A stretch of 57,373 bases of DNA from an uncultured Pelagibacteraceae bacterium (GTDB lineage Bacteria > Pseudomonadota > Alphaproteobacteria > Pelagibacterales > Pelagibacteraceae): assembly GCA_902596045.1 (NCBI GenBank), contig CACJSJ010000006.1, positions 1 through 57,373 on the forward strand, in the 5' to 3' direction. The notes below the pieces were generated by a model. The model worked only from the letters and a program-made list of their open reading frames with translations, was not told where the DNA came from and did not search any database. Shown here one piece after another: positions 13,120 through 36,077 of this stretch. Both the position numbers and the translations under genes were made by a program. How positions within the stretch are numbered: position 1 is the stretch's first letter; the number at the start of each line of letters is the position of its first letter.

Positions 13120-13196
13120 TGGTAGCGGGAAGTGGGATCGAACCACTGACCTCAGGCTTATGAGTCCTGCGCTCTAACCAACTGAGCTACCCCGCC
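13120..13196 (-). tRNA. tRNA-Met (anticodon CAT)
   Basis: A 77-nt cloverleaf on the minus strand with encoded CCA. It has a 7-bp acceptor stem (GGCGGGG with TCCCGCT, two G-U pairs), a D-arm GCTC/GAGC and a T-arm with TTCGATC. The anticodon loop CTCATAA places CAT at 13160-13162. The last anticodon-stem pair is an A-G mismatch. The 5' GGCGGGGTAGCTCAGTTGG resembles alphaproteobacterial elongator tRNA-Met. A CAT anticodon could also mean tRNA-Ile2 (lysidine-modified), which is less likely from the acceptor stem. Confidence 0.93.
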
Positions 13197-13212
13197 AATA
13201 AATCGTTGATTT

Positions 13213-13241
13213 ATAATAGATATTATTTTTAGTTCAATCAA
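13213..13241 (-). promoter_or_regulatory. Promoter of the tRNA gene
   Basis: Minus strand: -35 TTGATT (13236-13241), an exact 17-nt spacer and -10 TATTAT (13213-13218). The start would lie about 10 nt before the mature tRNA 5' end at 13196. Confidence 0.6.
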
Positions 13242-13350
13242 GTTTTTATACTTACTATAATCAAAGTAAGCTTATGAAATATAGACTCTTTATAGAAAAG
13301 TAAAAAGATATTTAAATAAGATAAAGGAATACTCTTACTTTTTAACAATT

Positions 13351-14514
13351 TTACATTAATATGTTTTTTATTTCTTTAATTACAATATTTTGCTCTTCAT
13401 CTGTTAAAGTAGGATACATTGGTAATGAAAAAACTTTTCTTGAAGATATTTCAGTTTCAGTTAATAAATTGCAGGTATCTTCTTTTGAGTTTTTTCTAGA
13501 ACAATTACATGACTCACATTCAAAATGCTTATAAGCATCCATAATATGTATTGGCCAAGGATAACTAATATTTAAATGAATATCTTTTTTCGTTAATTCA
13601 GACATAATTTTATCTCTTTCATTATGCTTAACCACATATATATAGTAAGCATGTCTGTTATCAGGATGTTCAATTGGTAATTCTAATGAAGTATTTTTTA
13701 ATTCTTTATTATATATGGTTGCTAAATTTCTTCTTCTCTCAATCCATTCATCAAGATATTTGAGTTTTTTTAATAGAATAGCAGCATGAACCTCATCTAA
13801 TCTTGAGTTTGTTCCATGTTCAACAGCATAATATTTTCCATTCCAGTGGCCAGATGACATCTTTTTTTTTTCCATTCCAAGAAATCTTATTCTTTTTATT
13901 TTATCATGAATTTGTTCATTATTAGTTGTAATAAATCCTCCATCTCCATAGGCTCCAAATATTTTAGTTGGATAAAAAGAGAAACATCCCACATCACCAA
14001 TTGATCCAGCTTTTTTTCCCTTATATGTAGCCCCGTGTGATTGAGCGCAATCTTCAATTACTTTTAAATTATATTTACTTGCTAGTTCCATAATCTTATC
14101 CATTTCACACATTTGACCATACAAATGAACAGGAATTATTGCTTTAGTTTTCTTATTAATTGCTTTTTCAATTTTATTTACATCAATTAATGAATATTCA
14201 TTTATATCTACAAATCTTACAGAAGCACCAGCATTAACTATACCAGTTACAGTTGGAACAGCGGTATTGGAGGTAGTTATAACTTCACTATCTGATGTTA
14301 CACCTAAAGCTTTTAATGATATTGTGATCGCATCAGTACAATTGCCTACACCTATACCAAATTTACTATCATGGTAAGATGAAAATTTTTTTTCAAATTC
14401 CTCAACATTTGGACCAAAAATTAATATTCCACTTTGAAAAACATTATCTACAGCTTCTAAGATATCATCCCTTAGAAGCTGATATTCTTTTTTATAATCC
14501 CAAACTTTAATCAT
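13351..14514 (-). CDS. DegT/EryC1/StrS sugar aminotransferase (EvaB-like role proposed)
   Basis: PLP-dependent aminotransferase of 387 aa acting on keto-sugar nucleotides. The conserved EDCAQSHGATYKG precedes the PLP-binding Lys in FYPTKIFGAYGDGG (about K184). Between the usual SYPWPIH and LPMYPTLT motifs there is an insertion of about 15 residues with four cysteines (C333, C336, C338, C348), unlike typical members. It is the last gene of the minus-strand sugar operon, 17 bp after the 2,3-dehydratase. In the epivancosamine pathway this step aminates C3. Amination at C4 is the main alternative and cannot be excluded from sequence. Confidence 0.85.
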   Translation of the reverse strand: MIKVWDYKKEYQLLRDDILEAVDNVFQSGILIFGPNVEEFEKKFSSYHDSKFGIGVGNCTDAITISLKALGVTSDSEVITTSNTAVPTVTGIVNAGASVRFVDINEYSLIDVNKIEKAINKKTKAIIPVHLYGQMCEMDKIMELASKYNLKVIEDCAQSHGATYKGKKAGSIGDVGCFSFYPTKIFGAYGDGGFITTNNEQIHDKIKRIRFLGMEKKKMSSGHWNGKYYAVEHGTNSRLDEVHAAILLKKLKYLDEWIERRRNLATIYNKELKNTSLELPIEHPDNRHAYYIYVVKHNERDKIMSELTKKDIHLNISYPWPIHIMDAYKHFECESCNCSRKNSKEDTCNLLTETEISSRKVFSLPMYPTLTDEEQNIVIKEIKNILM

Positions 14515-14531
14515 TAAATAAAATAACGCTT

Positions 14532-15785
14532 TTACTTAATTTTATCAACATTACAACTGGCAAATAGGTTCCTTGCCTCAATTGTCATTTTGTTTTGATT
14601 AATCAGTTCTACAACTTGATTATGGGAAGCCCAAACAAAATTGTCATATAGGTTGATCTTATTATGATCTTTTATTTCACAAATCATATTTCTTGTTTGA
14701 TTTTTTAAAAATCTTCCTCCTTCATCAGAATTTATTATATCCATCGAACAGTTCTTTTTATTAAAAAAAGATAAAAATTTTATATTTTTTCTTGAATTTA
14801 AAGAAAAATTTTTTTCAAATATAGTTGAAGTATACTTAGATTTATCAAAACCAGGTTCAATAATTATTTTTAATAGATAATGCACAGTATTACTGATTTT
14901 ACTTACTATAAAACCATTTAATGATGAAGAATGATCACTTATGATTGGTTGTTCCCATTTTTTTACCTCTCTTAAGTTAGCAACCACATCTATAAAAAAA
15001 ATTGAAAAAAATTTTTTTTTAATATCAGAGACAGAATTTTTTTTTATTTTCCAGTCTTTTAAATCATTAAAACTAATTATATTTCTGGAAAATTTCATCT
15101 TTTTATCAAATTGTTTCAACATATTCTTTATATTGTAATTTGAATTAAGCTTATTTTCACCTAAGTTTTTTTGAATTGCACTTGATAAAACAGATATAGC
15201 ATCCATGTTAAGCATATTTCTTTTATTTATTAGATACTGAATATTTTCTTTGGTTAGCCAGCAATAATTTTTTTTAAAAGGTATATTGAGCTTGTAAGCT
15301 TCTAATAAAATGTTCCAATTTTTCTTTTTTAAAAACCTCGAACCTTGCTCTGATAATTTAATTTTTGAGATAATCTTAAATTTTTTTTGTTTCTTGAGAA
15401 AATAGTTTAAAAAGGGTGTTTTTTTTCCACCATGTTTTCTTAGATAATTACTTTTTGTAGCTTGGACAGTAGGGGAAATTTGTATGCCATTAATATTACC
15501 CGGTTCAATTTTTGATTGTAAAAGATAATAATCTTTACCCCCACTTTTTTTTTTTACAATTCCCAATATTCCACGTTCTTTTTGAACTACTAACGGTTGA
15601 AATATTTTTTTATTTTTTTGCTGAAATAAAAATGGTTTGATAGAAAAAAAATTATTTGATTTGTGAAAAATAATGTTTTGTTTAAATATCCAATCCTTTA
15701 ATGAATTTATTTTTTTCTTCTTTATTCTAATTTTATTAATTTTTTTTTGATTGTTTAACCAATCAATTAATTTATTAGTTTTCAT
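14532..15785 (-). CDS. NDP-4-keto-6-deoxyhexose 2,3-dehydratase (EvaA/TylX3-like)
   Basis: 417 aa with the internal duplication typical of this family. Repeat 1 has YYLLQSKIEPGN (86-97), QISPTVQATKSNYLRKHGG (about 102-120) and SEQGSRFLKKKNWNILLE (145-162). Repeat 2 has HYLLKIIIEPGF (302-313) and SDEGGRFLKNQTRNMICE (353-370). Each repeat ends in a Trp-rich 'W-x-L/S-x-x-x-I/V-x-x-L-I-N' segment. The enzyme removes the C2 hydroxyl of TDP-4-keto-6-deoxy-D-glucose, the committed step to 2-deoxysugars. It is slightly shorter than antibiotic-cluster homologues (about 450-500 aa). It is extremely rich in Lys/Asn/Phe, with many A/T runs. It abuts the C-methyltransferase gene (1 bp). Confidence 0.85.
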   Translation of the reverse strand: MKTNKLIDWLNNQKKINKIRIKKKKINSLKDWIFKQNIIFHKSNNFFSIKPFLFQQKNKKIFQPLVVQKERGILGIVKKKSGGKDYYLLQSKIEPGNINGIQISPTVQATKSNYLRKHGGKKTPFLNYFLKKQKKFKIISKIKLSEQGSRFLKKKNWNILLEAYKLNIPFKKNYCWLTKENIQYLINKRNMLNMDAISVLSSAIQKNLGENKLNSNYNIKNMLKQFDKKMKFSRNIISFNDLKDWKIKKNSVSDIKKKFFSIFFIDVVANLREVKKWEQPIISDHSSSLNGFIVSKISNTVHYLLKIIIEPGFDKSKYTSTIFEKNFSLNSRKNIKFLSFFNKKNCSMDIINSDEGGRFLKNQTRNMICEIKDHNKINLYDNFVWASHNQVVELINQNKMTIEARNLFASCNVDKIK

Positions 15786-15786
15786 A

Positions 15787-16977
15787 TCATTTTATTATTC
15801 TTACCCTTGGAACATGAGTAATGAATTTTCCACCATTTTTGATAAATTTTTTTTCTTTAGCCATAATTTCTTTTGAAAAATTCCATGCACCAAGAAAGGC
15901 ATAGTCAATTTTTTCTTCGATCATATCGCACGAAGGCTTTATCAATAAATGTTTGCCTGGTGTAAATTTCCATTGTTTATTTTTAGTTGTATCGATGACA
16001 TAATTAATTAAACTTTTGTCAATATTGCAGTAATTAAAAATCGTTGCAGATTTATAAGTAGCTCCATAGCTAATTACTTTTTTATTATTTTTTCTAAGTT
16101 TTTTTAATAATTTTATTAATTGTTTTTTTGAATTTTGAACTCTTAAACTAAATTTTTTATATGTTGAAAATTTATTTAGTTTTTTATTTATTTCTAAATT
16201 AAAATTTTTTTTTACAGATTTTGAAATCTTGTATTTAGAGTCTTGTTTAGCTACATAAAATCTTATTGAACCTCCATGTGTATTAAGAATTTCAGTGTTT
16301 ATGATCTTTAGTTTATGGATCTTCAATAAATTTGAAATGGCTATCAAAGAAAAAACATGAACATGCTCATCATAAAATTGATCATATGAATTATTTTTCA
16401 ACACAGACCCTATATAAGGATCTTCAAAAACAAATACGCCATTATGATTGAGACAAATTGAAATTGCCTTAAAAACCTCTTTTAAATCAGGTATGTGAGA
16501 AATAGTATTTGCAGAGTAAATAAGATCTATTTTACCTTTCTCTTTTAAAATCTTTTTTGCTAAATTAACATCCCAAAATTTATCATAAGTATAATACCCT
16601 TTTTTATTTGTAATTTTGGCAAGATTTTTGCATGGTTCAACAGCTATAATTTTTTTTTTATGAAAGTTCTTTAAAAAAACACCATCATTACTTCCAATTT
16701 CTAAAGATAATTTTGGTTTATATTTTTTTTTAAGTGTTTCTGCAATTTTTTTAAAAGATAAATTCATTGTTTTCGATTGTGAAGCTCTGTGCGCATACAT
16801 ATTTGTATATTGATTTTTTGGATTAACAGGTTTTTTAATTGATACTAAATAATTATCTAAATCAATAATCATAGATAAATTATAAAAGAATTCTTTTTTT
16901 AAAGTTGAGGATCGGGTATTGATTAAGTAGGAATTAGTTATTGGTTGCTGTAACAAATTTAAAAATATTTTTTTCAT
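15787..16977 (-). CDS. Sugar-nucleotide C-methyltransferase (EvaC/TylC3-like)
   Basis: 396 aa. The SAM-binding motif SLEIGSNDGVFLKNF is at about 91-105. The hallmark Tyr-x-Glu-His catalytic segment appears as FYDEHVHVFS (about 201-210), followed by LNTHGGSIRFYV. A C-terminal Rossmann-like domain starts near ISYGATYKSAT (about 290). This three-domain layout is that of enzymes adding a methyl to C3 of keto-deoxysugars. The N-terminal domain normally binds zinc through two Cys-x2-Cys pairs; here LQQPITNSYLI is recognisable but the cysteines are absent. It lies in the sugar operon, upstream of the 2,3-dehydratase. Confidence 0.82.
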   Translation of the reverse strand: MKKIFLNLLQQPITNSYLINTRSSTLKKEFFYNLSMIIDLDNYLVSIKKPVNPKNQYTNMYAHRASQSKTMNLSFKKIAETLKKKYKPKLSLEIGSNDGVFLKNFHKKKIIAVEPCKNLAKITNKKGYYTYDKFWDVNLAKKILKEKGKIDLIYSANTISHIPDLKEVFKAISICLNHNGVFVFEDPYIGSVLKNNSYDQFYDEHVHVFSLIAISNLLKIHKLKIINTEILNTHGGSIRFYVAKQDSKYKISKSVKKNFNLEINKKLNKFSTYKKFSLRVQNSKKQLIKLLKKLRKNNKKVISYGATYKSATIFNYCNIDKSLINYVIDTTKNKQWKFTPGKHLLIKPSCDMIEEKIDYAFLGAWNFSKEIMAKEKKFIKNGGKFITHVPRVRIIK

Positions 16978-17013
16978 GCAATTTAAATTAAATAAACGAT
17001 TAACAAATAAATT

Positions 17014-17538
17014 TTATAGTCTATCAACCAAATGTTCAAAACTTAAATTTTTTTTATCTCTTTTCGATACTATAGGTTTTTTTATTGGCCATTTTATATT
17101 TAGCTTTGGATCATTCCAGATTATTCCTAATTCAGATTTTTCATCTCTATAATTTGTACATTTATAATGCATAATTGTGTTATTTTCTAATGCACAAAAA
17201 CCATGTGCAAAACCCTCAGGTATATAAAATGATACATTCTGTTTTTCAGACAGAATAATTGAAACATATTGTCCAAAAGTTTTTGAGCCTTTTCTCAAAT
17301 CAACAGCAACATCAAAAGCTTTACCTTTTAAAACAGTCACATATTTACCTTGAGAATTTTTTTTTTGTAAGTGGAGCCCTCTAATCACATTTTTTTTTGA
17401 ATAAGATATAATTTCAAAAATGAACTTTTTTGATAATAAATTTTCCCTATATAATTCTCTAAGGAAGCCTCTTTTATCTTTAAAAGTTTCTTTTTTAATA
17501 ATTAGTAAATCTTTAATTTTTGTTTTAATTATTTTCAC
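17014..17538 (-). CDS. RmlC-like dTDP-4-keto-6-deoxyhexose epimerase (EvaD-like role proposed)
   Basis: Cupin-type sugar epimerase, 174 aa from the GTG at 17538 (the frame extends to a TTG at 17547). I chose the GTG because family members begin MKI at this point. Motifs: FKDKRGFLRELY, RGLHLQ with the catalytic His, AVDLRKGSKTFGQ with the partner Asp, IPEGFAHGF, and Tyr in IMHYKC near the usual acid/base Tyr. It epimerises C3 and C5 (RmlC) or C5 alone (EvaD); sequence does not decide which. It is 36 bp upstream of the C-methyltransferase in the same operon. Confidence 0.85.
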   Translation of the reverse strand: MKIIKTKIKDLLIIKKETFKDKRGFLRELYRENLLSKKFIFEIISYSKKNVIRGLHLQKKNSQGKYVTVLKGKAFDVAVDLRKGSKTFGQYVSIILSEKQNVSFYIPEGFAHGFCALENNTIMHYKCTNYRDEKSELGIIWNDPKLNIKWPIKKPIVSKRDKKNLSFEHLVDRL

Positions 17539-17613
17539 TATTATCAATAATAAAATTTTGGTTGAATTTTAAACTTGTTATAAGATTATACATTGTAAGT
17601 AAAATTAATTCTT

Positions 17614-18330
17614 TTAGTTTTTTGTTATTTTTAAATATTTGTCTATATTCATTGATTGTTTAAGAGGAAATTTTTTACCTAACATTTTTTTAGCTGACAC
17701 AGGTTTAACTTTAGGATTTGTTTTTTTGGCAAAATTAAATACGATTTGCTTATGTCCCCCAACATTAATTATACCCTTTTTATCTATGAGTTTTAACAAG
17801 TTTTTTGCAAAGTCTTCATGATACATAAAATTTGTTTCAACATCATTGAATGCCTTTTTGTGAATAAATGGTTTTTCTGACATACAAATTCTTAAAATTA
17901 ATGAATTTTTATACATTTGAACTGCACATTCTCCTCCCAACTTAGATAGAGCATAATTATTTATTGGCAAAACAGGATCATCTTCTGAATAATTTCCTTT
18001 AGTTCCCGCATAAACATAATTTGTCGAAAAATAAATCAATTTAATTTTTTCTTGGTTGCAAACTTTTACAATATTGCAAGTTCCAATAATATTTTTTGAA
18101 ATACTATCTTCTATATTTTTTTCATGAATATCCATAGGCCTAGATAATGCAGCACAATGAATTAAATAATTTGGTTTAATTTTTTTTACATATTTTTTAA
18201 TTGAATTAATATTTGTTAAATTTAGAGTTTTTTTTGATGGAAAAAAAATATTTTTTGAACTCTTAAATTTTTTAAATACCTTAGCAAATCTTCCACCTCC
18301 ACCTGTCATAATGATTTTTTTTTGCTTCAT
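17614..18330 (-). CDS. RmlD-like dTDP-4-ketohexose reductase (EvaE-like role proposed)
   Basis: Short-chain dehydrogenase of the RmlD type, 238 aa against a usual 280-300. The Rossmann motif is IIMTGGGGRFAKVF at the N-terminus, with HCAALSRP, STNYVYAG (catalytic Ser/Thr) and YALSKLGGE (Tyr-x3-Lys). The shorter length reflects a reduced C-terminal substrate domain; I see no frameshift. It is the first gene of the operon running down to the aminotransferase and is a candidate for the final C4 ketoreduction. On its own it could also be the last step of dTDP-L-rhamnose synthesis. Confidence 0.75.
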   Translation of the reverse strand: MKQKKIIMTGGGGRFAKVFKKFKSSKNIFFPSKKTLNLTNINSIKKYVKKIKPNYLIHCAALSRPMDIHEKNIEDSISKNIIGTCNIVKVCNQEKIKLIYFSTNYVYAGTKGNYSEDDPVLPINNYALSKLGGECAVQMYKNSLILRICMSEKPFIHKKAFNDVETNFMYHEDFAKNLLKLIDKKGIINVGGHKQIVFNFAKKTNPKVKPVSAKKMLGKKFPLKQSMNIDKYLKITKN

Positions 18331-18546
18331 ATAAGGTTTTTTATAAATTCTTATTGATATTTAAATACAAATGAACAATAGAGATATCTACCATATTTAT
18401 TTATCTCAAATGTAAAAAATGCATTTTTTTTTTCATTTATATTATAATAGAATTTTATAAACTTTTTAAAAAAAAACGACATTATTATTTATAAAGATAT
18501 ACTTTATTGTTAAAAATTTTAATATACTCCAGAATTAAAAAAATTT

Positions 18547-20604
18547 ATGAAAATTACTTATCGTCCAGAAATAGACGGTTTAAGAGCAATCGCAGTTAGT
18601 GCTGTTATTTTGTATCATGCTCAAATCATTATCTTAGGTGAAAAACCTTTTAAGGGTGGATTTATAGGTGTTGATATTTTTTTTGTAATCTCAGGATACT
18701 TAATAACTTCTTTAATTTTGAAAGAATTAATAACAACTGGTTATTTTTCATTTAAGAATTTTTATGAAAGAAGAGTTAGGAGAATACTACCAGCGTTATT
18801 AGTTGTAATATTAGCTTCATTACCATTTGCTTGGATGTATCTTTTGCCTAATAATTTTTTGGATTTTTCAAAATCAATTCTTTATTCTCTTAGTTTTAGT
18901 TCTAACTTTTATTTTCATTTTTCAGGTCAACAATATGGAGCTGAAAGTGGATTATTAAAACCATTTCTTCACACTTGGTCTTTATCTGTTGAAGAACAAT
19001 TTTATATTTTATTTCCAATATTTTTATTAATTATTTTTAGATTTTTTAATAAATACTTAATTCATATTTTTATTTTTGGTTTTTTTATTAGTTTAGGTGT
19101 TGCTGATTGGAGTAGTAAAAATTCTTCATCTATTTCTTTTTATTTTATTCACACAAGAATATGGGAATTACTTGCTGGTTCAATTTTAGCATATTTTGAA
19201 ATTAAACAAGGTCACAGAAGTCAAAATAAGTTACTAAATTTGATAATGCCTAGCATTGGTTTATTTTTGATTATATTTACTATCGTTTTTTTTAAACTTC
19301 ATTTTCCACACCCATCATTTCATACATTGCCAGCAATTTTAGGGGTGTGTCTAATAATTTGGTTTTCTAATTCTAATGAAATAGTTACCAAATTGCTTTC
19401 AACTAAAATATTTGTGGGTGTTGGTCTTATCTCCTACTCATTATATCTATGGCATTATCCAATTTTTGCATTTGTTAGAATAAATGAAATTGGTGAAGGC
19501 AAATTACCTTTAATTTTATTGTTGGTCATAATCACCATTTTATCTATTCTTTCTTATTATCTAATTGAACAACCAGCTAGGAAAAAAAATTTCAATTTAA
19601 AGTTATTGTCAAGTTTAATTGCAATCTCTTTTTTTATATCAATTACGTTTAGCTTTAATGTAATAAATAAAGCGGGCTATAAAAATAGATTGCCAGAAAT
19701 TTTGGCCAAAAATTTGGAACAAGATATTTTCAAGGAAAATATATTTGAAGAGTCATGGAGATTTTGGCATTTATTAAGAAATGTAAATGGTGAGCATTGT
19801 TTTAGTAATACTGAAAGATGTAGTTTTAACACATCTTCAAGTAAAAAAGTTTATCTTGTTGGAGATAGTCATGCAGGATCAATAATGTATGATTTGAAAA
19901 ATAAAATAATAGACAAAAATTATCAATTTATCACTTCCGTTGTTGGTGGTTGTTCATTTTATCCAGGTTTTAATATGATTATTCCAAAAACTGGAAAAGT
20001 AGATGATTTATGTACTAATGAGTATTTTCAAAATTTAAAAGAAATTTTGTCTAAAGAAAAAGACTCAATCATTATATTTGTTGCAAGATTCCCAGCACAT
20101 TTAACAAATCTTGAGTTTAGTCAAAATATTAATGACAAAAAAGTTAAGTGGCATAGAGAATATGTTTCAGTTGGTGAATATAATAATTTACAAACTTCAT
20201 TTAGGAATGAAGTTTTAAATCTTTCAAAAAACAATAAAATAATTTTAATGTATCCTATTCCAGAAGTTGATTTTGACCCAAATAAAAAGATTTATCTCAA
20301 ATGGATTGGTAGAGAAAATAAATTTTCTAAAGATTTTAAACTTGAATACCTAACTACTTCTTATAAAGCTTATCAAACAAGAACAGCATCAAGTTTTGAA
20401 TTATTAGACTCTATTAAGGGTGAAAATATCTATAGGGTTTATCCACATACTTTATTTTGTAATACTGCTTTCAAAGATGAGTGTATGACACATGATGATA
20501 AAATTGTTTTTTACATTGATAAACACCATCCATCATTAAAAGGAAGTCACTTAATTAATGAGCTTATAGTTAAAGAGATTGAAAAAATAGAGCAAACATT
20601 TTAA
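18547..20604 (+). CDS. Membrane O-acyltransferase (acyltransferase 3) with C-terminal SGNH domain
   Basis: 685 aa, OafA/YrhL type. It begins ITYRPEIDGLRAIAVSAVILYHA, the family start with its conserved Arg and His. About ten membrane helices follow to about residue 375. Residues about 380-685 form a periplasmic SGNH hydrolase-like domain with VGDSHAGS (nucleophile Ser) and DKHHPS near the end (Asp/His). It would acetylate or otherwise acylate a surface glycan on the periplasmic side. It lies on the plus strand in the middle of the minus-strand sugar genes, dividing rmlBA from the other five, so the glycan made here is probably O-acylated. The 216 bp upstream are AT-rich; no clear operator is seen. 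Confidence 0.9.
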   Translation: MKITYRPEIDGLRAIAVSAVILYHAQIIILGEKPFKGGFIGVDIFFVISGYLITSLILKELITTGYFSFKNFYERRVRRILPALLVVILASLPFAWMYLLPNNFLDFSKSILYSLSFSSNFYFHFSGQQYGAESGLLKPFLHTWSLSVEEQFYILFPIFLLIIFRFFNKYLIHIFIFGFFISLGVADWSSKNSSSISFYFIHTRIWELLAGSILAYFEIKQGHRSQNKLLNLIMPSIGLFLIIFTIVFFKLHFPHPSFHTLPAILGVCLIIWFSNSNEIVTKLLSTKIFVGVGLISYSLYLWHYPIFAFVRINEIGEGKLPLILLLVIITILSILSYYLIEQPARKKNFNLKLLSSLIAISFFISITFSFNVINKAGYKNRLPEILAKNLEQDIFKENIFEESWRFWHLLRNVNGEHCFSNTERCSFNTSSSKKVYLVGDSHAGSIMYDLKNKIIDKNYQFITSVVGGCSFYPGFNMIIPKTGKVDDLCTNEYFQNLKEILSKEKDSIIIFVARFPAHLTNLEFSQNINDKKVKWHREYVSVGEYNNLQTSFRNEVLNLSKNNKIILMYPIPEVDFDPNKKIYLKWIGRENKFSKDFKLEYLTTSYKAYQTRTASSFELLDSIKGENIYRVYPHTLFCNTAFKDECMTHDDKIVFYIDKHHPSLKGSHLINELIVKEIEKIEQTF

Positions 20605-20652
20605 AAAAGTTTAACCAAATTCAAAGTATCTATCGGCTTGAAATATTTTTAT

Positions 20653-21519
20653 TTATAAAAGTTTTGATAAATATTTCGAATAATCACAATTACCATAAAA
20701 CTTCATAGATTGTTTTAGATGACTTCTATTTATCCATTTATTGTTAAAAGCAATTTCCTCTAGACAAGCAATTTTTAAACCTTGCTGATTTTCTATTGAA
20801 GAAACAAAAGTACTGGTTTTGTAAAAATCATCCATTGATCCTGTGTCAAGCCATGCACCACCTCTACCAATTAAGTCTGCATACAACTGGTTTTTTGATT
20901 TATAAAAATTTAACAAATCTACTATCTCAACCTCTCCCCTGGCTGACGGTTTTAATTTTTTTGCATATTTTACTACATTATTGTCAAAAAAATATAATCC
21001 TGTAATTGCGAGGTTAGAAAAGAATTTTTTAGGTTTTTCTTTTATTTTTATTATCTTATTTTGATTATTTGTTTTTGCGACACCAAATGATTCAGGTTTT
21101 AAAACTTTATGTAAAACAACTCTTGCACCATTCTTTAATTTTGTATTTTTTAAAAGTAATTTACTTAAACTCTGACCATAAAAAAAATTATCCCCCAGTA
21201 TCATTGCAACATTTTCTTTGCCAATAAACTTTTCACCTATTACAAATGCATCTGGAAGGCCTCGGGGTTCATTTTGTTCTAAATAACTAATTTTAATTCC
21301 TAAATTGTTACCATTTGGAAGTATTTTTTTATATTGATCTAATTGACCTTTATTAACAATAATTAATATATCTTTTATCTTAGCTAACATTAAAATTGAC
21401 AATGGATAAAAAATTAAAGGTTTATCGTAGATTGGAAGTAATTGTTTATTTACAGCTTTTGTTAAAGGACTCATTCTTGTTCCTTTTCCACCAGCTAATA
21501 TAATTCCTTTTTTTATCAT
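20653..21519 (-). CDS. rmlA: Glucose-1-phosphate thymidylyltransferase
   Basis: 288 aa, full length. It makes dTDP-glucose from glucose-1-phosphate and dTTP. The nucleotidyltransferase signature KGIILAGGKGTRMSPLT is followed by KQLLPIYDKPLIFYPLS; MILGDNFFYG, KPKKFFSNLAITGLYFFD and GGAWLDTGS are all typical of RmlA. Its ATG (21517-21519) overlaps the stop of a 13-codon minicistron (21516-21518) created by a 38-bp tandem duplication after rmlB. It feeds rmlB and through it the deoxysugar genes. Confidence 0.95.
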   Translation of the reverse strand: MIKKGIILAGGKGTRMSPLTKAVNKQLLPIYDKPLIFYPLSILMLAKIKDILIIVNKGQLDQYKKILPNGNNLGIKISYLEQNEPRGLPDAFVIGEKFIGKENVAMILGDNFFYGQSLSKLLLKNTKLKNGARVVLHKVLKPESFGVAKTNNQNKIIKIKEKPKKFFSNLAITGLYFFDNNVVKYAKKLKPSARGEVEIVDLLNFYKSKNQLYADLIGRGGAWLDTGSMDDFYKTSTFVSSIENQQGLKIACLEEIAFNNKWINRSHLKQSMKFYGNCDYSKYLSKLL

Positions 21520-21590
21520 CCTTTACCCAATCTATTATTAATATCTTTTTTTATCATCCTTTACCCAATCTATTATTAATATCTTTTTTT
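21507..21590 (-). repeat. 38-bp perfect tandem duplication at the rmlB/rmlA junction
   Basis: Bases 21515-21552 and 21553-21590 are identical 38-bp units, and the CTTTTTTT at 21507-21514 repeats the unit's end. The unit spans the rmlB C-terminal codons and the ATGA overlap with rmlA. Because 38 is not a multiple of 3, the extra copy leaves a separate 13-codon frame (MIKKDINNRLGKG, 21557 down to 21516) with ATGA overlaps at both ends. Confidence 0.95.
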
Positions 21591-22567
21591 GAAAGTGATT
21601 TATAATATGATTTATTTTTAAGATACCAATCTAAAGTTAATTTTATTCCTTTTGAAAAATTTATTTTAGGCTGCCAACCAAGTTTTTTTTTAATTTTATT
21701 ACTATTTAAGGCATATCTTATATCGTGTCCTGGACGATCTTTTACAAAATTTATTTTAACTTTATTACCTAACTTAATTGATTTTCTTGAGTTTTTTAAA
21801 AGCTCTTTAGTAACTTCTAAATTGTTTAAATTTTTATTAGATCCAATATTATAAAATTCACCTATTTTACCTCTTAAAAAGACTTTAATTAAAGCTTCAC
21901 AGTGATCCTTTACATAAATCCATTCTCTAGAATTCGTTCCTTTACCATATATAGGTAAAGGCTTGTTGTTAAAAATATTATAAATTAGTTTTGGAATTAA
22001 TTTTTCTGGATGTTGTTTTGGACCATAATTATTAGAACAGTTTGTAACTATTGCTGGCAAATTATAAGTTCTCACATAAGAACTCACTAAATGATCTGAA
22101 GCAGCTTTGCTAGCAGCATAGGGTGAGCTTGGTTGGTAAGGATATTTTTCATCTGATCTACCAGATAAAATATCACCATAAACCTCATCAGTAGAAATAT
22201 GAATTAATTTAGATTTGTTCTTTTTTGAAAAATTTTTAAAACTTTCTAAAAGATTATATACACCAACAATATTACTTTGAATAAAGCTATCAGGATTATC
22301 AATTGATCTATCAACGTGAGTTTCTGCTGCTAAGTTAAATACGCCACTTGGTTTATATTTAAATAATATATTTTCAAATTTTCTATTTTTAATATCTAGT
22401 TTGATAAATTTATATTTTTTTGATCTTTTAAACTCTTTTACATTATAATAGTTAGAAGAATACGTGGCTTTGTCTATGTTTATAACAAAAAATTTTTTTT
22501 TTAATAATAGATCAATGAGATTGCTACCAATAAAACCTAATCCGCCTGTAACTATGATTTTTTTCAT
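21554..22567 (-). CDS. rmlB: dTDP-glucose 4,6-dehydratase
   Basis: 337 aa, full length. It converts dTDP-glucose to dTDP-4-keto-6-deoxyglucose. The Rossmann motif is VTGGLGFIGSNLID, with NLAAETHVDRSIDNP, STDEVYGD (Thr-Asp-Glu catalytic triad) and YAASKAASDHLV (Tyr-x3-Lys), plus NCSNNYGPKQHPEKLIP. All are diagnostic of RmlB. It shares an intergenic region of about 54 bp with the divergent GT2 gene. Its product is the branch point for L-rhamnose and for the 2,3-dehydratase route encoded downstream. The last codons lie in the duplicated 38-bp unit. Confidence 0.95.
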   Translation of the reverse strand: MKKIIVTGGLGFIGSNLIDLLLKKKFFVINIDKATYSSNYYNVKEFKRSKKYKFIKLDIKNRKFENILFKYKPSGVFNLAAETHVDRSIDNPDSFIQSNIVGVYNLLESFKNFSKKNKSKLIHISTDEVYGDILSGRSDEKYPYQPSSPYAASKAASDHLVSSYVRTYNLPAIVTNCSNNYGPKQHPEKLIPKLIYNIFNNKPLPIYGKGTNSREWIYVKDHCEALIKVFLRGKIGEFYNIGSNKNLNNLEVTKELLKNSRKSIKLGNKVKINFVKDRPGHDIRYALNSNKIKKKLGWQPKINFSKGIKLTLDWYLKNKSYYKSLSKKDINNRLGKG

Positions 22568-22621
22568 TATTTGATTTTTACATTACAAAAAAGTGTTAGT
22601 ATAGTCGAATATACACATATC

Positions 22622-23506
22622 ATGTCAATAAGTAGGCAAAATCTTTCAGTAATAATTGTTAGCTTTAAAAGCTATCACGTTATTCATCGTTGTATTAATT
22701 CAATAGATAAAGAAATTGAAATTATTGTTATAGAAAACTCAAATAATACAAAACTTAAAAAAGATATTGAAGAACAATATGAAAATGTAAAATGTATCTT
22801 GTCCTCAGAAAATATTGGAATGGGTGCTGGCAATAATATAGGTATAAAAAATACAAATAAAGATTTTGCTTTGATTCTTAATCCAGATGTAATTTTAGAA
22901 AAAAATACAATTGATGAAATTATTGGCGCATCAAAATCATTAGATTCTTTTGGAGTTATTGCACCGATTTCAGATAAGCCCAATTACCCAAATTATAAAC
23001 TTGATAAAAATAAAAATCATAAATTTAATCCAATTAATCCTTTTAAAGTGAAAACTGTCGATGGATACTCAATGCTTTTGAATTTAAAAAGATTAAGAAA
23101 GTTAAATAATTTTAATTTTTTTGATGAAAATATTTTTTTGTATCTTGAAAATGACGATTTTTGTAAAAGATTAAATTCAAATAATGAAAATATATATATT
23201 GTGCCAAAATCTAAAGTTCATCACTTTGGAGGAGAAGCAGTTGATCCTAAATATCAGTATGAAATTGAGCTTTCTAGAAATTGGCATTGGATGTGGTCAA
23301 AATTTTATTTCAATAAAAAACATTATGGATTCATAAAAGCTTTTATTAATATTTTTCACAATTTAATTTCAGCAAAAATTAAATTTTTTTATTTTCTAAT
23401 TACATTTAATAATAATAGGAGAAGAATTTACCAGATGAGACTATTTGGGTTATTAAATTCTATGATTGGTAACAAATCCTTTTACAGACCAAAATTAGAC
23501 GATTAA
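22622..23506 (+). CDS. Family 2 glycosyltransferase (rhamnosyltransferase-like)
   Basis: 294 aa from the ATG at 22622. The frame extends to 22571, but the GT2 domain begins right after this Met (NLSVIIVSFKSYHVIHRCI), and the earlier start would leave no room for a promoter beside rmlB. Motifs: ENIGMGAGNNIGIK and the metal-binding LNPDV (DxD-like), then FLYLENDDFCKRL. The layout matches WbbL-type transferases that use dTDP-deoxysugars. It is therefore a candidate for attaching the sugar made by the neighbouring rml/eva-like genes. It overlaps the convergent apt gene by 4 bp. Confidence 0.8.
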   Translation: MSISRQNLSVIIVSFKSYHVIHRCINSIDKEIEIIVIENSNNTKLKKDIEEQYENVKCILSSENIGMGAGNNIGIKNTNKDFALILNPDVILEKNTIDEIIGASKSLDSFGVIAPISDKPNYPNYKLDKNKNHKFNPINPFKVKTVDGYSMLLNLKRLRKLNNFNFFDENIFLYLENDDFCKRLNSNNENIYIVPKSKVHHFGGEAVDPKYQYEIELSRNWHWMWSKFYFNKKHYGFIKAFINIFHNLISAKIKFFYFLITFNNNRRRIYQMRLFGLLNSMIGNKSFYRPKLDD

Positions 23507-31730: not shown

Positions 31731-32120
31731 TTAATAGCTAGTATATTCTTTTATCTCTTTAATTTTTGAACCGGTATAATTATTAATTTCTAGTTTAATC
31801 TTAGCTCTATCATCATTTAAAAAATGAACATCGCGTGATAATTTAATAAATTTTTCATCAAATTTTTTTTCTTTTTCACACAATCTTTTATCATCCTCAA
31901 TTATCCACAGTTTAGCATTTATTTCTTTTAAAGATTGAAAGAGTTTATTAAGTTTATCATCAGACCTCACATTATTATCTAATTGATCTTTTAAAATTGA
32001 ATGTTCATTAGAAATGAATCTTAGTTTCTCAGGGTCTTTAATTTTTTCTTGTTTAATTTCTAAAATTGAAATCTTATCTAAAAGTTCACCTATTGAAACT
32101 TCTACTATAATTTTATTCAT
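31731..32120 (-). CDS. DUF6165-like protein
   Basis: 129 aa. It starts IIVEVSIGELLDKISILEIKQEKI, matching a small conserved family of unknown function (DUF6165) often found near glycosyltransferases. It is highly charged and probably all-helical, with no signal peptide. It is 8 bp upstream of the M24-like gene on the same strand and divergent (32 bp) from the GT9 gene, which is the likelier functional partner. Confidence 0.65.
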   Translation of the reverse strand: MNKIIVEVSIGELLDKISILEIKQEKIKDPEKLRFISNEHSILKDQLDNNVRSDDKLNKLFQSLKEINAKLWIIEDDKRLCEKEKKFDEKFIKLSRDVHFLNDDRAKIKLEINNYTGSKIKEIKEYTSY

Positions 32121-32152
32121 AAAATTAAATACTGTGTTATCTTGTTATAAAT

Positions 32153-33094
32153 ATGTCTAATATTTTAATTATTAAACACGGATCATTAGGAGATATAGCC
32201 CAAGCAAGTGGTGCAATTCAAGATATATATGAAAATCATAAAAATGATCAAATTTATCTTTTAACAACAAAACCTTATTTAGATTTATTTAGGAAAAATC
32301 CATTTATTCATGAAGTAATTTTGGACAAAAGATTACCCAGATTTAACTTAATTTATTTATATTTTTTGATGAGAGAACTAAAGAAATATAAGTTTTCAAA
32401 AGTTTTTGATCTTCAAAATTCATCAAGAACTAATTTTTATAAAAATATTCTTTTTCCTAAAGCAAATAAAGAAGTTTGGTCTAGCTCTACTACAACTTTA
32501 CCTAATGTTTTAAATAAAAAAGAATTTGATAAACACTCTGTTTTAGATAGATTTAATCATCAACTTCAAACCTCAAAAATACAAACATCAAATACATTAA
32601 ATCCAAATTTTAATTGGGCGTCTACTGATATCAGTGAAATTAAAAGCCAATATAATTTAAATAAATATATTTTATTATTTCCATTTTGCTCACCTCATTT
32701 ATCAATTAAGAAATGGCCTTACTTTAATGATTTATCAAAACTAATTTTAAATAAGTTTAATGATGAATTTAAAATAGTTACTGCACCAGGGCCCTTAGAA
32801 ATCAATGAAGCAAAAAATATTAATTCACTTGTACTTCTTGATAATGGAAAAGCTCTAGATATTTTTCAATTAACTGCCCTCATAAAAGAAAGCTCTTTTA
32901 TTATAGCAAATGATACTGGTCCAGCACATATAGCTGCTCACGTAGGAGCTAAAGGTTTAACTTTATTTGGTCAACATACAACTGCATTTAAAGTAAGTAT
33001 AGAAAGAGAAAATTTTAAGGCAATTCAAGTTAATGATTTAAAAAATTTAAGCCCAGAAAAAGTTTTTGAGAGAGTTATTGAAAATTTAAGTTAA
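32153..33094 (+). CDS. Family 9 glycosyltransferase (heptosyltransferase-like)
   Basis: 313 aa, GT9/WaaF-RfaF type. N-terminal ILIIKHGSLGDIAQASGAIQ carries the G-D-x-x-x-x acceptor motif of the family. The C-terminal donor half has LFPFCSPHLSIKKWP and FIIANDTGPAHIAAHVGAKGLTLFG, the ADP-heptose-type binding signature. It would transfer a heptose or similar sugar in lipopolysaccharide core assembly on the cytoplasmic face. It overlaps the convergent GT4 gene by 9 bp. Confidence 0.85.
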   Translation: MSNILIIKHGSLGDIAQASGAIQDIYENHKNDQIYLLTTKPYLDLFRKNPFIHEVILDKRLPRFNLIYLYFLMRELKKYKFSKVFDLQNSSRTNFYKNILFPKANKEVWSSSTTTLPNVLNKKEFDKHSVLDRFNHQLQTSKIQTSNTLNPNFNWASTDISEIKSQYNLNKYILLFPFCSPHLSIKKWPYFNDLSKLILNKFNDEFKIVTAPGPLEINEAKNINSLVLLDNGKALDIFQLTALIKESSFIIANDTGPAHIAAHVGAKGLTLFGQHTTAFKVSIERENFKAIQVNDLKNLSPEKVFERVIENLS

Positions 33095-34168
33095 TATTTT
33101 TTTATAATTTTCTATAATATTTGACCAAAGAAATTTATCAGAATTTAATTTTGCATTTTTACCAAATTCTATGAATTTTTTATTTTCTAACATTAAGTTT
33201 AATGATGAATATATTTCATCTAAATTATTTCCATCACAAATTAAACCTGCTTTATCATGATCAATTGCATCTGCAGCACCACCATCTTTTCCACCAATTG
33301 AGGGAATGCCATATTGCGCAGCTTCCACATAAGCTATCCCAAATCCTTCTACTGATGTTTTGTATTTAATAGAAGGCATAACAAATATATTAGATTTAGA
33401 AATCAATGCATTTTTTAAATTTTCAGAAATATCTTTAAAAAACATAACTTGAGCTTCAAGACCAAGTTCTTTAACTAATTTTTTAATATTTTCTTCCTCA
33501 GTTCCATAACCAATACAAATGTAAACAATATCTGGATATATTTGTTTTAAATTTCTGATAGCCATAATTACTTTTTCATGATTTTTTCTTTTATCAAATC
33601 TTGAAACAGTAATTAATCTCGGTGTTTTAATCTTTAATAAACTTTCGACCTTATTAATTGATTTTTTATCTAGATCTTTAACAGGATCAATACCTGGATT
33701 AATGATAGTAATCTTTTCTTCATTTACACCAATTTCAATTGCTAAATTTTTTGTGTATTGTGAATTGGCAATTACCTTTTCTACATTGTTCAAAACTTTC
33801 AAAATACGATTATTTAATCTACTACCTTTTGGATGGTTAATTTCTTTTCCATGAATTAAGCAATATTTTTTTCTGTCTGTTTTAAGAAGCTCTAAACTTT
33901 TCCAATGATCTCCAATAATACCATTAATTTTATTTTCTTTAGACACTTCATCAATTAACTGTGCTTTTCTTATTTTTCTTAAAAATTTAAAACCCCCAAC
34001 TCTTTCAATTGAAAAATTTACTTTTTCATCAAATTCTTTATGATTTTCTTGATAATCTGCAAAAACTTTAATCAAAAAGTTTTTTGACATTTCTCTGGCT
34101 AAACCCCACATCAAACTTTGCATACCTCCTAATTCTGGTGGAAAAGCTCTTGTTACAATCAAATACAT
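33086..34168 (-). CDS. Family 4 glycosyltransferase
   Basis: 360 aa, GT-B fold. The N-terminal YLIVTRAFPPELGGMQSLMWGLA is the Gly-rich acceptor-side loop. The C-terminal half has VSRFDKRKNHEKVI and the donor-binding EGFGIAYVEAAQYGIPSIGGKDGGAADAI (E-x7-E motif). The acceptor is probably a lipopolysaccharide or other envelope glycan, given the GT9 neighbour. It is coupled to the upstream redoxin gene by a 1-bp TAATG overlap. Confidence 0.85.
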   Translation of the reverse strand: MYLIVTRAFPPELGGMQSLMWGLAREMSKNFLIKVFADYQENHKEFDEKVNFSIERVGGFKFLRKIRKAQLIDEVSKENKINGIIGDHWKSLELLKTDRKKYCLIHGKEINHPKGSRLNNRILKVLNNVEKVIANSQYTKNLAIEIGVNEEKITIINPGIDPVKDLDKKSINKVESLLKIKTPRLITVSRFDKRKNHEKVIMAIRNLKQIYPDIVYICIGYGTEEENIKKLVKELGLEAQVMFFKDISENLKNALISKSNIFVMPSIKYKTSVEGFGIAYVEAAQYGIPSIGGKDGGAADAIDHDKAGLICDGNNLDEIYSSLNLMLENKKFIEFGKNAKLNSDKFLWSNIIENYKKILT

Positions 34169-34722
34169 TAATTATATTTCCATTTAATGCTACAGCCAGC
34201 ACTTGGGGTCTGACCTTTTGGTCCATTATTAGTTTCAGCAATCTGTACCATAGCTTTAAATAAATCACTTTTACCATTTCTAACAGGCATAAGTTTTTTT
34301 AGTTCTCTTGACCGTCCTCTGTATTGAAGTTCTAAATTTTTATTGTACCCAAAGAAATCTGGAGTGCAAACTGCATCATAAGCTTTTGCAATTTCCTGTG
34401 TTTCATCAATTAAATAAGGAAAGTTAAATTTATTTTTTTTTGCAAACTCAATCATGTTTTCAAAAGAGTCCTCAGGATAATTAACAGTATCATTTGAAGA
34501 AATGGCAATAGAATTTATACCTATTTTTTTAAACTCATTACAGTCCTCAACAATATCTTTGGTTATTGCTTTTACATATGGGCAGTGATTACAAATAAAC
34601 ATTATTAATGTTCCATTTTTACCTCTAACTTGATCTAATGAAACAAAATTACCTTCAGTAGATTTAAGTTTAAATGGAATAGCTTTTTTGCCAAAATCAC
34701 ATATTGGAGTTTGTAGCAGCAT
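34168..34722 (-). CDS. Thioredoxin-fold protein (AhpC/TSA-redoxin type)
   Basis: 184 aa. The thioredoxin-like fold has the active site ICNHCPYVKAI (Cys-x2-Cys at about 44-47), followed by ISSNDTVNYPEDSFENM, PYLIDETQEIAKAYDAVCTPDFFGYN and a conserved cis-Pro region. No signal peptide, so probably a cytoplasmic thiol oxidoreductase. It is co-transcribed with the GT4 gene. The substrate is unknown. Confidence 0.82.
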   Translation of the reverse strand: MLLQTPICDFGKKAIPFKLKSTEGNFVSLDQVRGKNGTLIMFICNHCPYVKAITKDIVEDCNEFKKIGINSIAISSNDTVNYPEDSFENMIEFAKKNKFNFPYLIDETQEIAKAYDAVCTPDFFGYNKNLELQYRGRSRELKKLMPVRNGKSDLFKAMVQIAETNNGPKGQTPSAGCSIKWKYN

Positions 34723-34742
34723 ATTGTAATAATATATAAGTT

Positions 34743-35255
34743 ATGTTTTATGATTTAAAAGATAAAAAACCAAAAAACTCTGGTGAAAATTGGGTTGCGC
34801 CCAATGCAACTATAATAGGTGATGTTACTTTAGAAAAGAATTCAAGTATTTGGTTCAACGCTGTTTTAAGGGGTGACATAGAAAACATTCACATAGGGGA
34901 AGGATCTAATGTCCAAGATGGAAGTGTTTTACATACAGATCCAGGTTGCCCTTTAAAAGTTGGCAAAGACGTAACAGTTGGGCATTTAGTTATGCTTCAT
35001 GGATGTACAATCGGAGACAATAGCTTAATTGGAATTGGAGCTGTTATTCTTAATAAAGCTAAAATTGGAAAAAATTGTATTATTGGCGCTAAAGCTTTAA
35101 TTACAGAAAATAAAGTTATACCAGACAATTCGTTAGTAGTTGGCTCACCAGGAAAAGTTGTAAGAGAGGTTACAGAAGAAGAAAAAAAAGCAGTTTGGGA
35201 AAATACTAAACATTATCAAGATAACTGGAAAAAGTACTCTAAATCAATTTTTTAA
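34743..35255 (+). CDS. Gamma-carbonic-anhydrase-like hexapeptide protein (PaaY/YrdA family)
   Basis: 170 aa left-handed beta-helix. Repeated hexapeptides run from APNATIIGDVTLEKNSSIW to about residue 125. The zinc-ligand histidines are in DGSVLHTD, TVGHLVMLHGC, in the H...H-x4-H spacing of gamma-carbonic anhydrases. The C-terminal helix (KKAVWENTKHYQDNWKKY) is typical. Activity could be carbonic anhydrase or a thioesterase-like role as for PaaY. It is divergent (20 bp) from the redoxin gene. Confidence 0.88.
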   Translation: MFYDLKDKKPKNSGENWVAPNATIIGDVTLEKNSSIWFNAVLRGDIENIHIGEGSNVQDGSVLHTDPGCPLKVGKDVTVGHLVMLHGCTIGDNSLIGIGAVILNKAKIGKNCIIGAKALITENKVIPDNSLVVGSPGKVVREVTEEEKKAVWENTKHYQDNWKKYSKSIF

Positions 35256-35264
35256 AATTTTTAA

Positions 35265-36077
35265 ATGACAGTAACCAAAAATCTAACTTCAATTGCCGAA
35301 ATTTATAAAACAGATAAGTTAGAACATGGTTACACAGCAGTTTATGAAAAATATTTTGAAAACATAAGAGATCAAAAATTACAAATTCTAGAAATAGGTA
35401 TAGCAGATGGAAAATCTTTATTAATGTGGTCAGATTATTTTAAAAATTCCACTATTATTGGTATCGATATTCATAAAATAGATATTAAAGAAAAAAAACT
35501 TGATAGAAACAACATTAAGGTTCACCAAGGATCTCAAAGTGATGATAAATGTATTAATAAATTAATTAGTCAATACGGGAATTTTGATATTATTATTGAT
35601 GATGGGAGCCATTTAAAAAAAGATGTTATCAAAAGTTTTCATTTGCTCTTTCCTTATTTAAATAATGATGGCCTATATGTAGTAGAAGATATGCAAACGA
35701 GTTATAATCATTTTTTTGGAGGCAATCCTTTTGATTTGAAATATTCAAATTCACATATGAATTTTTTTAAACATTTGACTGATAGATTGAATTATCAAGA
35801 AATTGCTAACCCTTTTTACACTTCTAATAAATATGATGCAAAAATAACTAACGTTTCTTTTTATCATAATCTAGTTTTTGTGAGAAAAGGAGTTAATGAC
35901 AAAATTAGCAAGGAAGTATTAAAACATTCGTATGAAAATATGAAGTTTAATGAAAAGTCATCAAGAACTGGTAATTTTTTTAAATATTATATTAAATATA
36001 AAATTATTTATAAAACCTATACTTTTGTTTTTATGATATTTAATTTAATAAAAAGATTGTTACTTTTAAGGTTTTAA
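35265..36077 (+). CDS. SAM-dependent methyltransferase (macrocin O-methyltransferase-like)
   Basis: 270 aa. TDKLEHGYTAVYEKYFENI and ILEIGIADGKSLLMWSDYF (SAM motif I), then GIDIHKID, DIIIDDGSH and LYVVEDMQTSY, follow the MycE/TylE-type sugar O-methyltransferases, in which the D-D-x-S-H segment helps bind metal. The C-terminus (about 245-270) is a hydrophobic/basic helix that could touch the membrane. The likely target is a sugar hydroxyl in a surface glycan. It lies 9 bp after the hexapeptide gene and overlaps the convergent next gene by 4 bp. Confidence 0.75.
   Translation: MTVTKNLTSIAEIYKTDKLEHGYTAVYEKYFENIRDQKLQILEIGIADGKSLLMWSDYFKNSTIIGIDIHKIDIKEKKLDRNNIKVHQGSQSDDKCINKLISQYGNFDIIIDDGSHLKKDVIKSFHLLFPYLNNDGLYVVEDMQTSYNHFFGGNPFDLKYSNSHMNFFKHLTDRLNYQEIANPFYTSNKYDAKITNVSFYHNLVFVRKGVNDKISKEVLKHSYENMKFNEKSSRTGNFFKYYIKYKIIYKTYTFVFMIFNLIKRLLLLRF

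Follow-up and report, generated by a model that had tools for sequence, protein, structure and literature searches.

A candidate branched amino-sugar module grafted onto a rhamnose-type gene set in a SAR11 genome

Does a streamlined ocean bacterium make a rare methyl-branched amino sugar of a kind known mainly from antibiotics, and, if so, which of its genes are peculiar to that task? The question is raised by contig CACJSJ010000006.1 (57,373 nucleotides; hereafter the window) of an uncultured Pelagibacteraceae bacterium. On its minus strand, from 13351 to 18330, five adjoining genes encode a DegT aminotransferase, a 2,3-dehydratase, a C-methyltransferase, an RmlC-type epimerase and a short RmlD-like short-chain dehydrogenase/reductase (SDR), with intergenic gaps of 17, 1, 36 and 75 bases; rmlA and rmlB lie nearby, parted from the run by a plus-strand AT3-SGNH acyltransferase gene. 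In Amycolatopsis orientalis, the enzymes EvaA to EvaE act in turn to produce TDP-L-epivancosamine for chloroeremomycin, and the original prediction, made from the letters of this DNA, had read the run as a complete EvaA-E set. That reading holds for the 2,3-dehydratase, the probable C3 aminotransferase and the C3 methyltransferase, but not for RmlC and the SDR, which seem to be resident and occur also at loci without a dehydratase. The distinctive part is apparently a three-gene module (dehydratase, aminotransferase and methyltransferase) placed on a rhamnose-type set. We regard as real an antibiotic-type branched amino-sugar module in SAR11 that is under selection and alternates with a 3-hydroxy version, its chemistry being predicted from relatives.

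The dehydratase, aminotransferase and methyltransferase

All of the named genes are intact frames whose family profile matches agree with the classes first proposed for them (Table 1), and the supposed SAR11 host was likewise confirmed by a Pelagibacteraceae relative, AG-333-M03 (G409). The dehydratase is 74% identical over 417 residues to that of AG-333-M03, the sole relative found in a scan of GTDB contigs, which reaches close relatives only. In this second, independent assembly the gene set is the same and the gene order to either side is kept across a contig break; contamination or an assembly artefact is thereby ruled out. The window's own genome assembly, 87% complete, totals 1.07 Mb over 32 contigs, and the region 13197-23506 has a GC content of 24.5% as compared with 30.1% and 29.5% on its two flanks.

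The dehydratase is covered by PF03559 in two stretches, and the only distinct Protein Data Bank (PDB) sequence that it matches is EvaA (4j7g, 1.6e-48), which is matched by both halves. Mutation of E139 and E190 abolishes EvaA activity, as described in a 2022 review (PMC8987622), and E94 and E146 of the window align with these two catalytic glutamates of pocket A. Both are kept in all 28 aligned SAR11 rows and in six of seven plasmid reference dehydratases, the Hoeflea protein having Asp at the second position. By sequence alignment, the enzyme thus retains the active-site residues whose loss had been named as grounds for doubt. A structure prediction of the dehydratase with one relative was too low in confidence for use (pLDDT 29.7), and a scan of viral contigs, again reaching close relatives only, returned no relative of the enzyme. 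Another alphaproteobacterium, Hoeflea sp. IMCC20628, has a plasmid-borne 2,3-dehydratase gene whose neighbours include glycosyltransferase genes, an acyltransferase gene and rfbA.

In the aminotransferase, the motif FSFYPTK at residues 178-184 contains what we take to be the lysine that binds pyridoxal phosphate. Two enzymes lead its PDB ranking, followed by QdtB, 5u1z, 2oga and WbpE, ahead of perosamine synthetase and 2po3; we take 5u1z, 2oga and 2po3 to be WlaRG, DesV and DesI, and we presume that QdtB, WlaRG, DesV and WbpE are C3 enzymes, perosamine synthetase and DesI being C4 enzymes. Among plasmid relatives, the best 25 of 985 records represent seven lineages (Serratia, Kitasatospora, Streptomyces atratus, S. 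clavuligerus with 16 of the 25, S. akebiae, S. albidoflavus and Pseudonocardia), and for every lineage at least one of these records also holds a 2,3-dehydratase. At least 19 of these 25 records recur among the dehydratase matches listed, the two genes lying about 20 kb apart in Pseudonocardia and within about 5 kb in the other lineages. This association is further strengthened by a tree in which the SAR11 aminotransferase clade is sister to plasmid references with dehydratase partners (97/97), among rows that held no C3 enzymes of other pathways. A grouping with enzymes for a different sugar, which would have told against the original prediction, was not found; the protein groups with aminotransferases of 2,3-dehydratase records, and its relatives make action at C3 probable.

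A different amino sugar, with the DegT enzyme working at C4 or the methyltransferase at another position (for example, a 4-amino branched sugar), is in our view unlikely. C3- and C4-type DegT enzymes do share one fold, regiochemistry is judged here from relatives, and the best NCBIfam matches of the aminotransferase are models that we assume to be of C4 type, all below their cut-offs (PseC, 260.6 bits vs 423.5). Nevertheless, the PDB ranking, the plasmid ranking and the tree all place the protein with 2,3-dehydratase partners, and the ketoreductase that stands in its place at other SAR11 loci (described below) is similar to KijD10, a C3-acting enzyme of the kijanimicin pathway.

The methyltransferase scores best against PDB 5t64 (244 bits, 2e-71), followed by TcaB9 (225) and 4rv9 (179); we take 5t64 to be KijD1 and 4rv9 to be TylC3, the mycarose enzyme. 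The best PDB match was 5t64 for both SAR11 methyltransferases tested. The Tyr-x-Glu-His motif first noted is present as Tyr-Asp-Glu-His, and its Tyr, Glu and His are presumably the residues that are catalytic in TcaB9. The N-terminal four-Cys site, which binds structural zinc, is lacking, with no Cys in the first 75 residues, and 16 other methyltransferases of regular dehydratase cassettes also lack it (0 or 1 Cys there), while that of a divergent dehydratase locus (L060) has two Cys in this region. Two CxxC pairs are present in all three plasmid reference methyltransferases and in the SAR11 methyltransferase of L084, a locus without a dehydratase. Two residues past the motif His, the aminotransferase clade has His and the other regular cassettes have Tyr (14 of 14). 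Phages yielded only distant methyltransferases, in six records. The window's own genome contains a second sugar C-methyltransferase gene on another contig (L108:9160-10356, about 29159-30355 of contig C2), which has no PF03559 match; near this gene are those for a 132-aa protein that resembles FdtA/QdtA by eye only and for a 307-aa SDR-like protein.

The apparently resident rhamnose-type enzymes and the predicted sugar

RmlC of the window passes the NCBIfam rmlC model (201.4 bits vs a cut-off of 155.75). In the RmlC tree, which included no EvaD row and gives the window protein no firm place inside the SAR11 group, five epimerases of plasmid antibiotic clusters split off at 100/100 from 21 SAR11 rows, the window among them. 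RmlA reaches 356.5 bits against TIGR01207, with a cut-off of 360.65. Between the window and AG-333-M03, RmlC is 80% and the SDR 85% identical, closer than to any other row compared (the SDR of AG-333-M03 was left out of the SDR tree).

The apt/mtaP locus, where these genes lie, was compared across 20 other SAR11 genomes without PF03559, hand-picked by contig reach from 67 matching genomes. SDR, RmlC, RmlA and RmlB are found together at five of these loci and SDR, RmlA and RmlB at one, while three have RmlA and RmlB, one has RmlB only and ten have none; the lack of a dehydratase at all 20 follows from the selection, as dehydratase genomes already fetched were left out. A methyltransferase of about 35% identity is present at two of them (L081 and L084) and a GFO-type reductase at one (L079). 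At the same place, six dehydratase loci (L039-L044) combine the same rml genes with an inserted methyltransferase-dehydratase-reductase set, and the window and AG-333-M03 have the aminotransferase form of the insert. In one of the six, the two-domain dehydratase is broken by a stop (L044:9353-10614), with intact copies in relatives. All three aminotransferase-type genomes encode RmlC and the SDR, although in one (G342, the genome of locus L037) these two genes are at distances of about 29 kb (RmlC) and about 43 kb (SDR) from the three-gene module. The genome of L035, which is 72% complete, gave no convincing SDR and an RmlC match of just 34.6 bits. Judging by the occurrence of both genes with rmlAB at dehydratase-free loci and by the RmlC tree, we read RmlC and the SDR as probably resident in SAR11 and assign to them the functions of EvaD and EvaE.

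Taken together, we consider it fairly probable that the product of the locus is a TDP-3-amino-3-C-methyl-2,3,6-trideoxyhexose, probably of the L series, and that it is made by three genes grafted onto a rhamnose-type pathway already resident in SAR11. We infer every reaction and stereochemistry of this route from sequence. RmlA would form TDP-glucose and RmlB TDP-4-keto-6-deoxyglucose, from which the EvaA-like dehydratase would remove the C2 oxygen to give a 3,4-diketo sugar; the aminotransferase would trap this sugar by a C3 amino group, and the methyltransferase would put a methyl group on C3, making that carbon quaternary. RmlC, left with C5 only to flip, would then lead into the L series, and the short SDR would reduce C4. 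Should the SDR share the stereochemistry of RmlD, which leaves the C4 hydroxyl equatorial, the sugar formed would correspond to L-epivancosamine.

Several points weigh against this route. RmlC, which satisfies a rhamnose-pathway model, may do no more than serve L-rhamnose synthesis. The SDR is short, its PF04321 match spanning residues 5-149 and only the first 149 of 287 model positions, with 89 bits as compared with the RmlD cut-off of 224; it has the YxxxK motif (YALSK at 126), the last Gly of its nucleotide-binding motif is replaced by Ala, and its structure prediction was too low for use (pLDDT 31.5). The methyltransferase of one reductase-type locus prefers KijD1 as well (237 bits vs 194 for TylC3), and thus the PDB ranking alone does not indicate an amino substrate. 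In kijanimicin biosynthesis, the same three enzyme types yield a D sugar (PMC10951976).

We grant a minor but appreciable likelihood to a second scheme, in which two sugars are made: RmlA, RmlB, RmlC and the SDR would make L-rhamnose, and the module would make a D-series 3-amino-3-C-methyl-4-keto (kijanose-like) sugar finished by another reductase. Consistent with this are the RmlC and SDR genes found without a dehydratase at the locus in five of the 20 genomes, the rmlC equivalog score, the distances in G342 and the D configuration of kijanose, which is made by the same enzyme types (PMC10951976). On the other hand, RmlC directly follows the module in the window and AG-333-M03, it is between these two that RmlC and the SDR are most alike, and the stretch 13351-23506 showed no gene for a further reductase. 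We accordingly prefer a single amino sugar of the L series, with the reservations listed above.

Aminotransferase or ketoreductase at the same branch

Besides the window, 27 dehydratase loci were fetched, so that a two-domain dehydratase could be compared at 11 loci (window included) and a single-domain form of 227-253 aa at 17. The methyltransferase adjoins the dehydratase in all 11 two-domain loci. Three of these (window, L037 and L038) carry the aminotransferase with no GFO/IDH/MocA reductase nearby, and the other eight carry a KijD10-like reductase with no such aminotransferase; the two were never found together (11 of 11). The ketoreductase hidden Markov model (HMM) was trained on 11 of these same neighbours, which makes the reductase counts partly circular, while the Pfam assignment is independent: the reductase family PF01408 was found in 8 of 10 neighbours tested, from both dehydratase classes, the other two being a GT2 and a methyltransferase. 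The best PDB match of the reductase was the sugar 3-ketoreductase 3rbv, presumably KijD10, in both of two cases tested, one of them from a single-domain locus. Reductases of the two-domain loci score 327-393 bits against the ketoreductase model, three of the eight being in the model. No KijD10-like ketoreductase was seen in the window's own genome: PF01408 matches at three places, none on the window's contig, and the two of these that lie above its cut-off score 92 and 70 bits against the ketoreductase model. The same division is seen in the dehydratase, where the pocket-B Glu at residue 310 (14856-14858) is kept in all three aminotransferase-type proteins and is replaced by Lys in all seven intact reductase-type two-domain proteins.

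In kijanimicin biosynthesis, two routes lead on from the dehydratase product, one by reduction (KijD10) and the other by amination (KijD2) and methylation (KijD1) (PMC10951976). This branch point, together with the either/or gene content, suggests that SAR11 loci exchange the enzyme at that branch, and relatives with the ketoreductase instead of the aminotransferase should, from their gene content, make a 3-hydroxy (mycarose-type) sugar. Among the single-domain loci, a reductase lies within 8 kb in 16 of 17, the contig ending in the other, and in six the genes form an RmlA-RmlC-SDR-methyltransferase-dehydratase cassette, to which RmlB is added in five. Their PF03559 proteins (L045-L061) keep both pocket-A Glu and thus represent a natural half-size EvaA.

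The case for exchange must be set against three facts. Two single-domain loci (L054 and L058) have an aminotransferase (48-49%) together with the reductase, contrary to a simple rule. At 87% completeness, the assembly of the window's own genome may lack a ketoreductase that the organism has. Finally, the three aminotransferase loci form one clade in the dehydratase and methyltransferase trees (Shimodaira-Hasegawa-like approximate likelihood ratio test 93; 100/99), indicating at least one event of exchange, and maybe a single one, rather than many. These trees used rows above thresholds of 300 bits for the SDR, 200 for RmlC, 300 for the methyltransferase, 140 for the aminotransferase and 200 for the dehydratase, by which weaker members were dropped, and that of the dehydratase gave a long-branch warning.

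A broader proposal, quite possible in our judgment though short of probable, is that the slot is an exchangeable cassette in which an rml backbone is combined with no C3 module, a ketoreductase or an aminotransferase, giving L-rhamnose, a 3-C-methyl-2,6-dideoxyhexose or a 3-amino-3-C-methyl-2,3,6-trideoxyhexose, respectively; sugars of antibiotic type would in that case belong naturally to the cell surface. If so, a single gene would alter cell-surface charge in one of the ocean's most abundant bacterial groups. Provided that the products are surface sugars, SAR11 would hold a store of antibiotic-type deoxysugars, and the exchange of aminotransferase and ketoreductase would amount to an experiment of nature on how surface charge and recognition change. 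The predicted pathway provides a testable sugar to seek in this group.

Distribution, surroundings and known systems

PF03559 was found in 26 of 397 genomes of the order Pelagibacterales including the window's own (25 of 396 without it), and in a phylum sample of 398 only in that own genome (0 of 397 without it). With the comparison limited to genomes of 90% completeness or more and 5% contamination or less, the counts are 8 of 151 for the order and 0 of 337 for the phylum sample, and the Fisher values for this contrast (2e-8 for all genomes, 7e-5 for the high-quality ones) are overstated by the relatedness of SAR11 genomes. The family is rare rather than absent elsewhere in the phylum, given that Serratia and Hoeflea plasmids carry it. 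Among the 61 nearest genomes it occurs in four, with none among the 18 of best quality, and two of the fetched dehydratase genomes came from the nearest-genome search only. The five genes are under purifying selection, with dN/dS between the window and AG-333-M03 of 0.06 for the aminotransferase, 0.17 for the dehydratase, 0.07 for the methyltransferase, 0.11 for RmlC and 0.06 for the SDR (from an alignment cut by the contig end), as compared with 0.05 for mtaP, all being rough values with dS near or above 1.

The neighbouring genes follow the module less closely than had been proposed. The GT2 had been cast as the enzyme that attaches the module sugar, and we found that it groups with GT2s of loci that lack the module: its nearest relatives after AG-333-M03 come from loci without a dehydratase, and the GT2s of reductase-type loci mostly group with the rml-only loci L076 and L078, that of L039 lying elsewhere. 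Since the GT2 does not track the module, it is more likely a resident transferase; it scores 32.3 bits against the rhamnosyltransferase model TIGR01556 (cut-off 200.55). The acyltransferase, at first suggested as perhaps acylating the sugar, is absent between the SDR and RmlA in AG-333-M03, where a 271-aa protein lies instead.

We infer that the sugar is used in a cell-surface glycan. A standard O-chain cluster, which in Pelagibacterales adjoins the 16S-23S operon according to a large survey (PMC11898729), was ruled out, as no rRNA family reached the Rfam threshold in the window and the locus lies by apt/mtaP. Decoration of a secreted small molecule, as in actinomycetes, appears very improbable to us. 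Several of the named relatives inspected do lie in antibiotic-type clusters, with L100 and L102 beside polyketide synthases and the Serratia plasmid gene beside beta-ketoacyl synthase genes, but no polyketide or peptide synthetase is among the annotated genes of the window, the GT2 and the GT9 and GT4 genes further right are of glycan type, and the Hoeflea dehydratase stands among glycosyltransferases.

Table 1. Features of the low-GC region and its left edge.
Feature	Position	Strand	Evidence
tRNA-Met, left edge of low-GC stretch	13120..13196	-	ARAGORN; Rfam tRNA 13123-13196
DegT/DnrJ/EryC1/StrS aminotransferase, predicted C3 (EvaB/KijD2-like), 387 aa	13351..14514	-	PF01041 4.8e-107
Two-domain NDP-hexose 2,3-dehydratase (EvaA-like), 417 aa	14532..15785	-	PF03559 x2, 1e-90
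Predicted sugar 3-C-methyltransferase (KijD1/TcaB9-like), 396 aa	15787..16977	-	PF08484 2.5e-46
RmlC-type 3,5-epimerase, predicted C5 epimerase step	17014..17538	-	PF00908 4.9e-57; NCBIfam rmlC
Short RmlD-like SDR, predicted 4-ketoreductase, 238 aa	17614..18330	-	PF04321 5.6e-28
AT3-SGNH acyltransferase, possible glycan O-acylation	18547..20604	+	PF01757, PF19040
RmlA glucose-1-phosphate thymidylyltransferase	20653..21519	-	PF00483 2.4e-60; TIGR01207 just below cut-off
RmlB dTDP-glucose 4,6-dehydratase	21554..22567	-	TIGR01181 414.5 bits vs cut-off 365.1
GT2 glycosyltransferase of rml locus	22571..23506	+	PF00535 4.5e-12; TIGR01556 below cut-off

The RmlC start at 17538 (GTG), as first given, agrees with the ATG start of a relative (L007), the listed frame opening at TTG 17547; the listed GT2 frame opens at TTG 22571, as against a start of 22622 given earlier. 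At curated thresholds, Rfam matched only tRNA in the window. A tandem array of a 38-base unit in 2.9 copies (21481-21590) spans the rmlA start and the rmlB end, and further repeats in the window look like AT-rich low-complexity matches. Genes for a DUF6165 protein, a GT9, a GT4, a hexapeptide transferase and a methyltransferase at 31731-36077 probably form another glycan-related group.

In the 2022 review, the characterised sugar 2,3-dehydratases named are from antibiotic clusters (PMC8987622). The large survey of SAR11 O-chain clusters, which drew on nearly 1,700 single-cell genomes, states that gene functions were left unanalysed, and its main text makes no mention of rhamnose, dehydratase, dTDP, aminotransferase or deoxy (PMC11898729). 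No title or abstract on such a pathway in SAR11 was found among the papers listed from the open-licence literature, which is weak evidence of absence.

Compared with known systems, the window resembles EvaA-E in having a 2,3-dehydratase, C3 aminotransferase, C3 methyltransferase, RmlC-family epimerase and 4-ketoreductase by class, here in one run, and differs in its SAR11 host, its Rml-type, seemingly resident candidates for the two final steps, its methyltransferase without the four-Cys site and its lack of adjoining antibiotic genes. The dTDP-L-rhamnose set RmlABCD is shared in RmlA, RmlB, RmlC and an RmlD-like SDR and is found without the module at the same SAR11 locus, the window differing by its three extra genes and its short SDR. 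The kijanimicin genes of Actinomadura (KijB1, KijD2, KijD1 and KijD10) offer the parallel of one dehydratase product that is aminated and C-methylated or else C3-reduced, and the SAR11 methyltransferases (2 of 2) and ketoreductases (2 of 2) match best the structures that we take to be KijD1 and KijD10. Both kijanimicin branches are in one cluster and the reduced branch is not said to be C-methylated, whereas SAR11 two-domain loci carry one branch instead of the other and have a methyltransferase with both (PMC10951976). The virenose genes of Coxiella burnetii, for which a TylC3-type 3-C-methyltransferase was proposed in silico for a Gram-negative lipopolysaccharide sugar (PMC3539893), are similar in that respect, although virenose is 6-deoxy-3-C-methyl-gulose and is neither 2-deoxy nor amino. 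Lastly, the Pelagibacterales O-chain clusters, as characterized in the survey (PMC11898729), share with this locus low-GC, variable glycan genes in SAR11, and are distinguished by their place beside the 16S-23S operon rather than by apt/mtaP.

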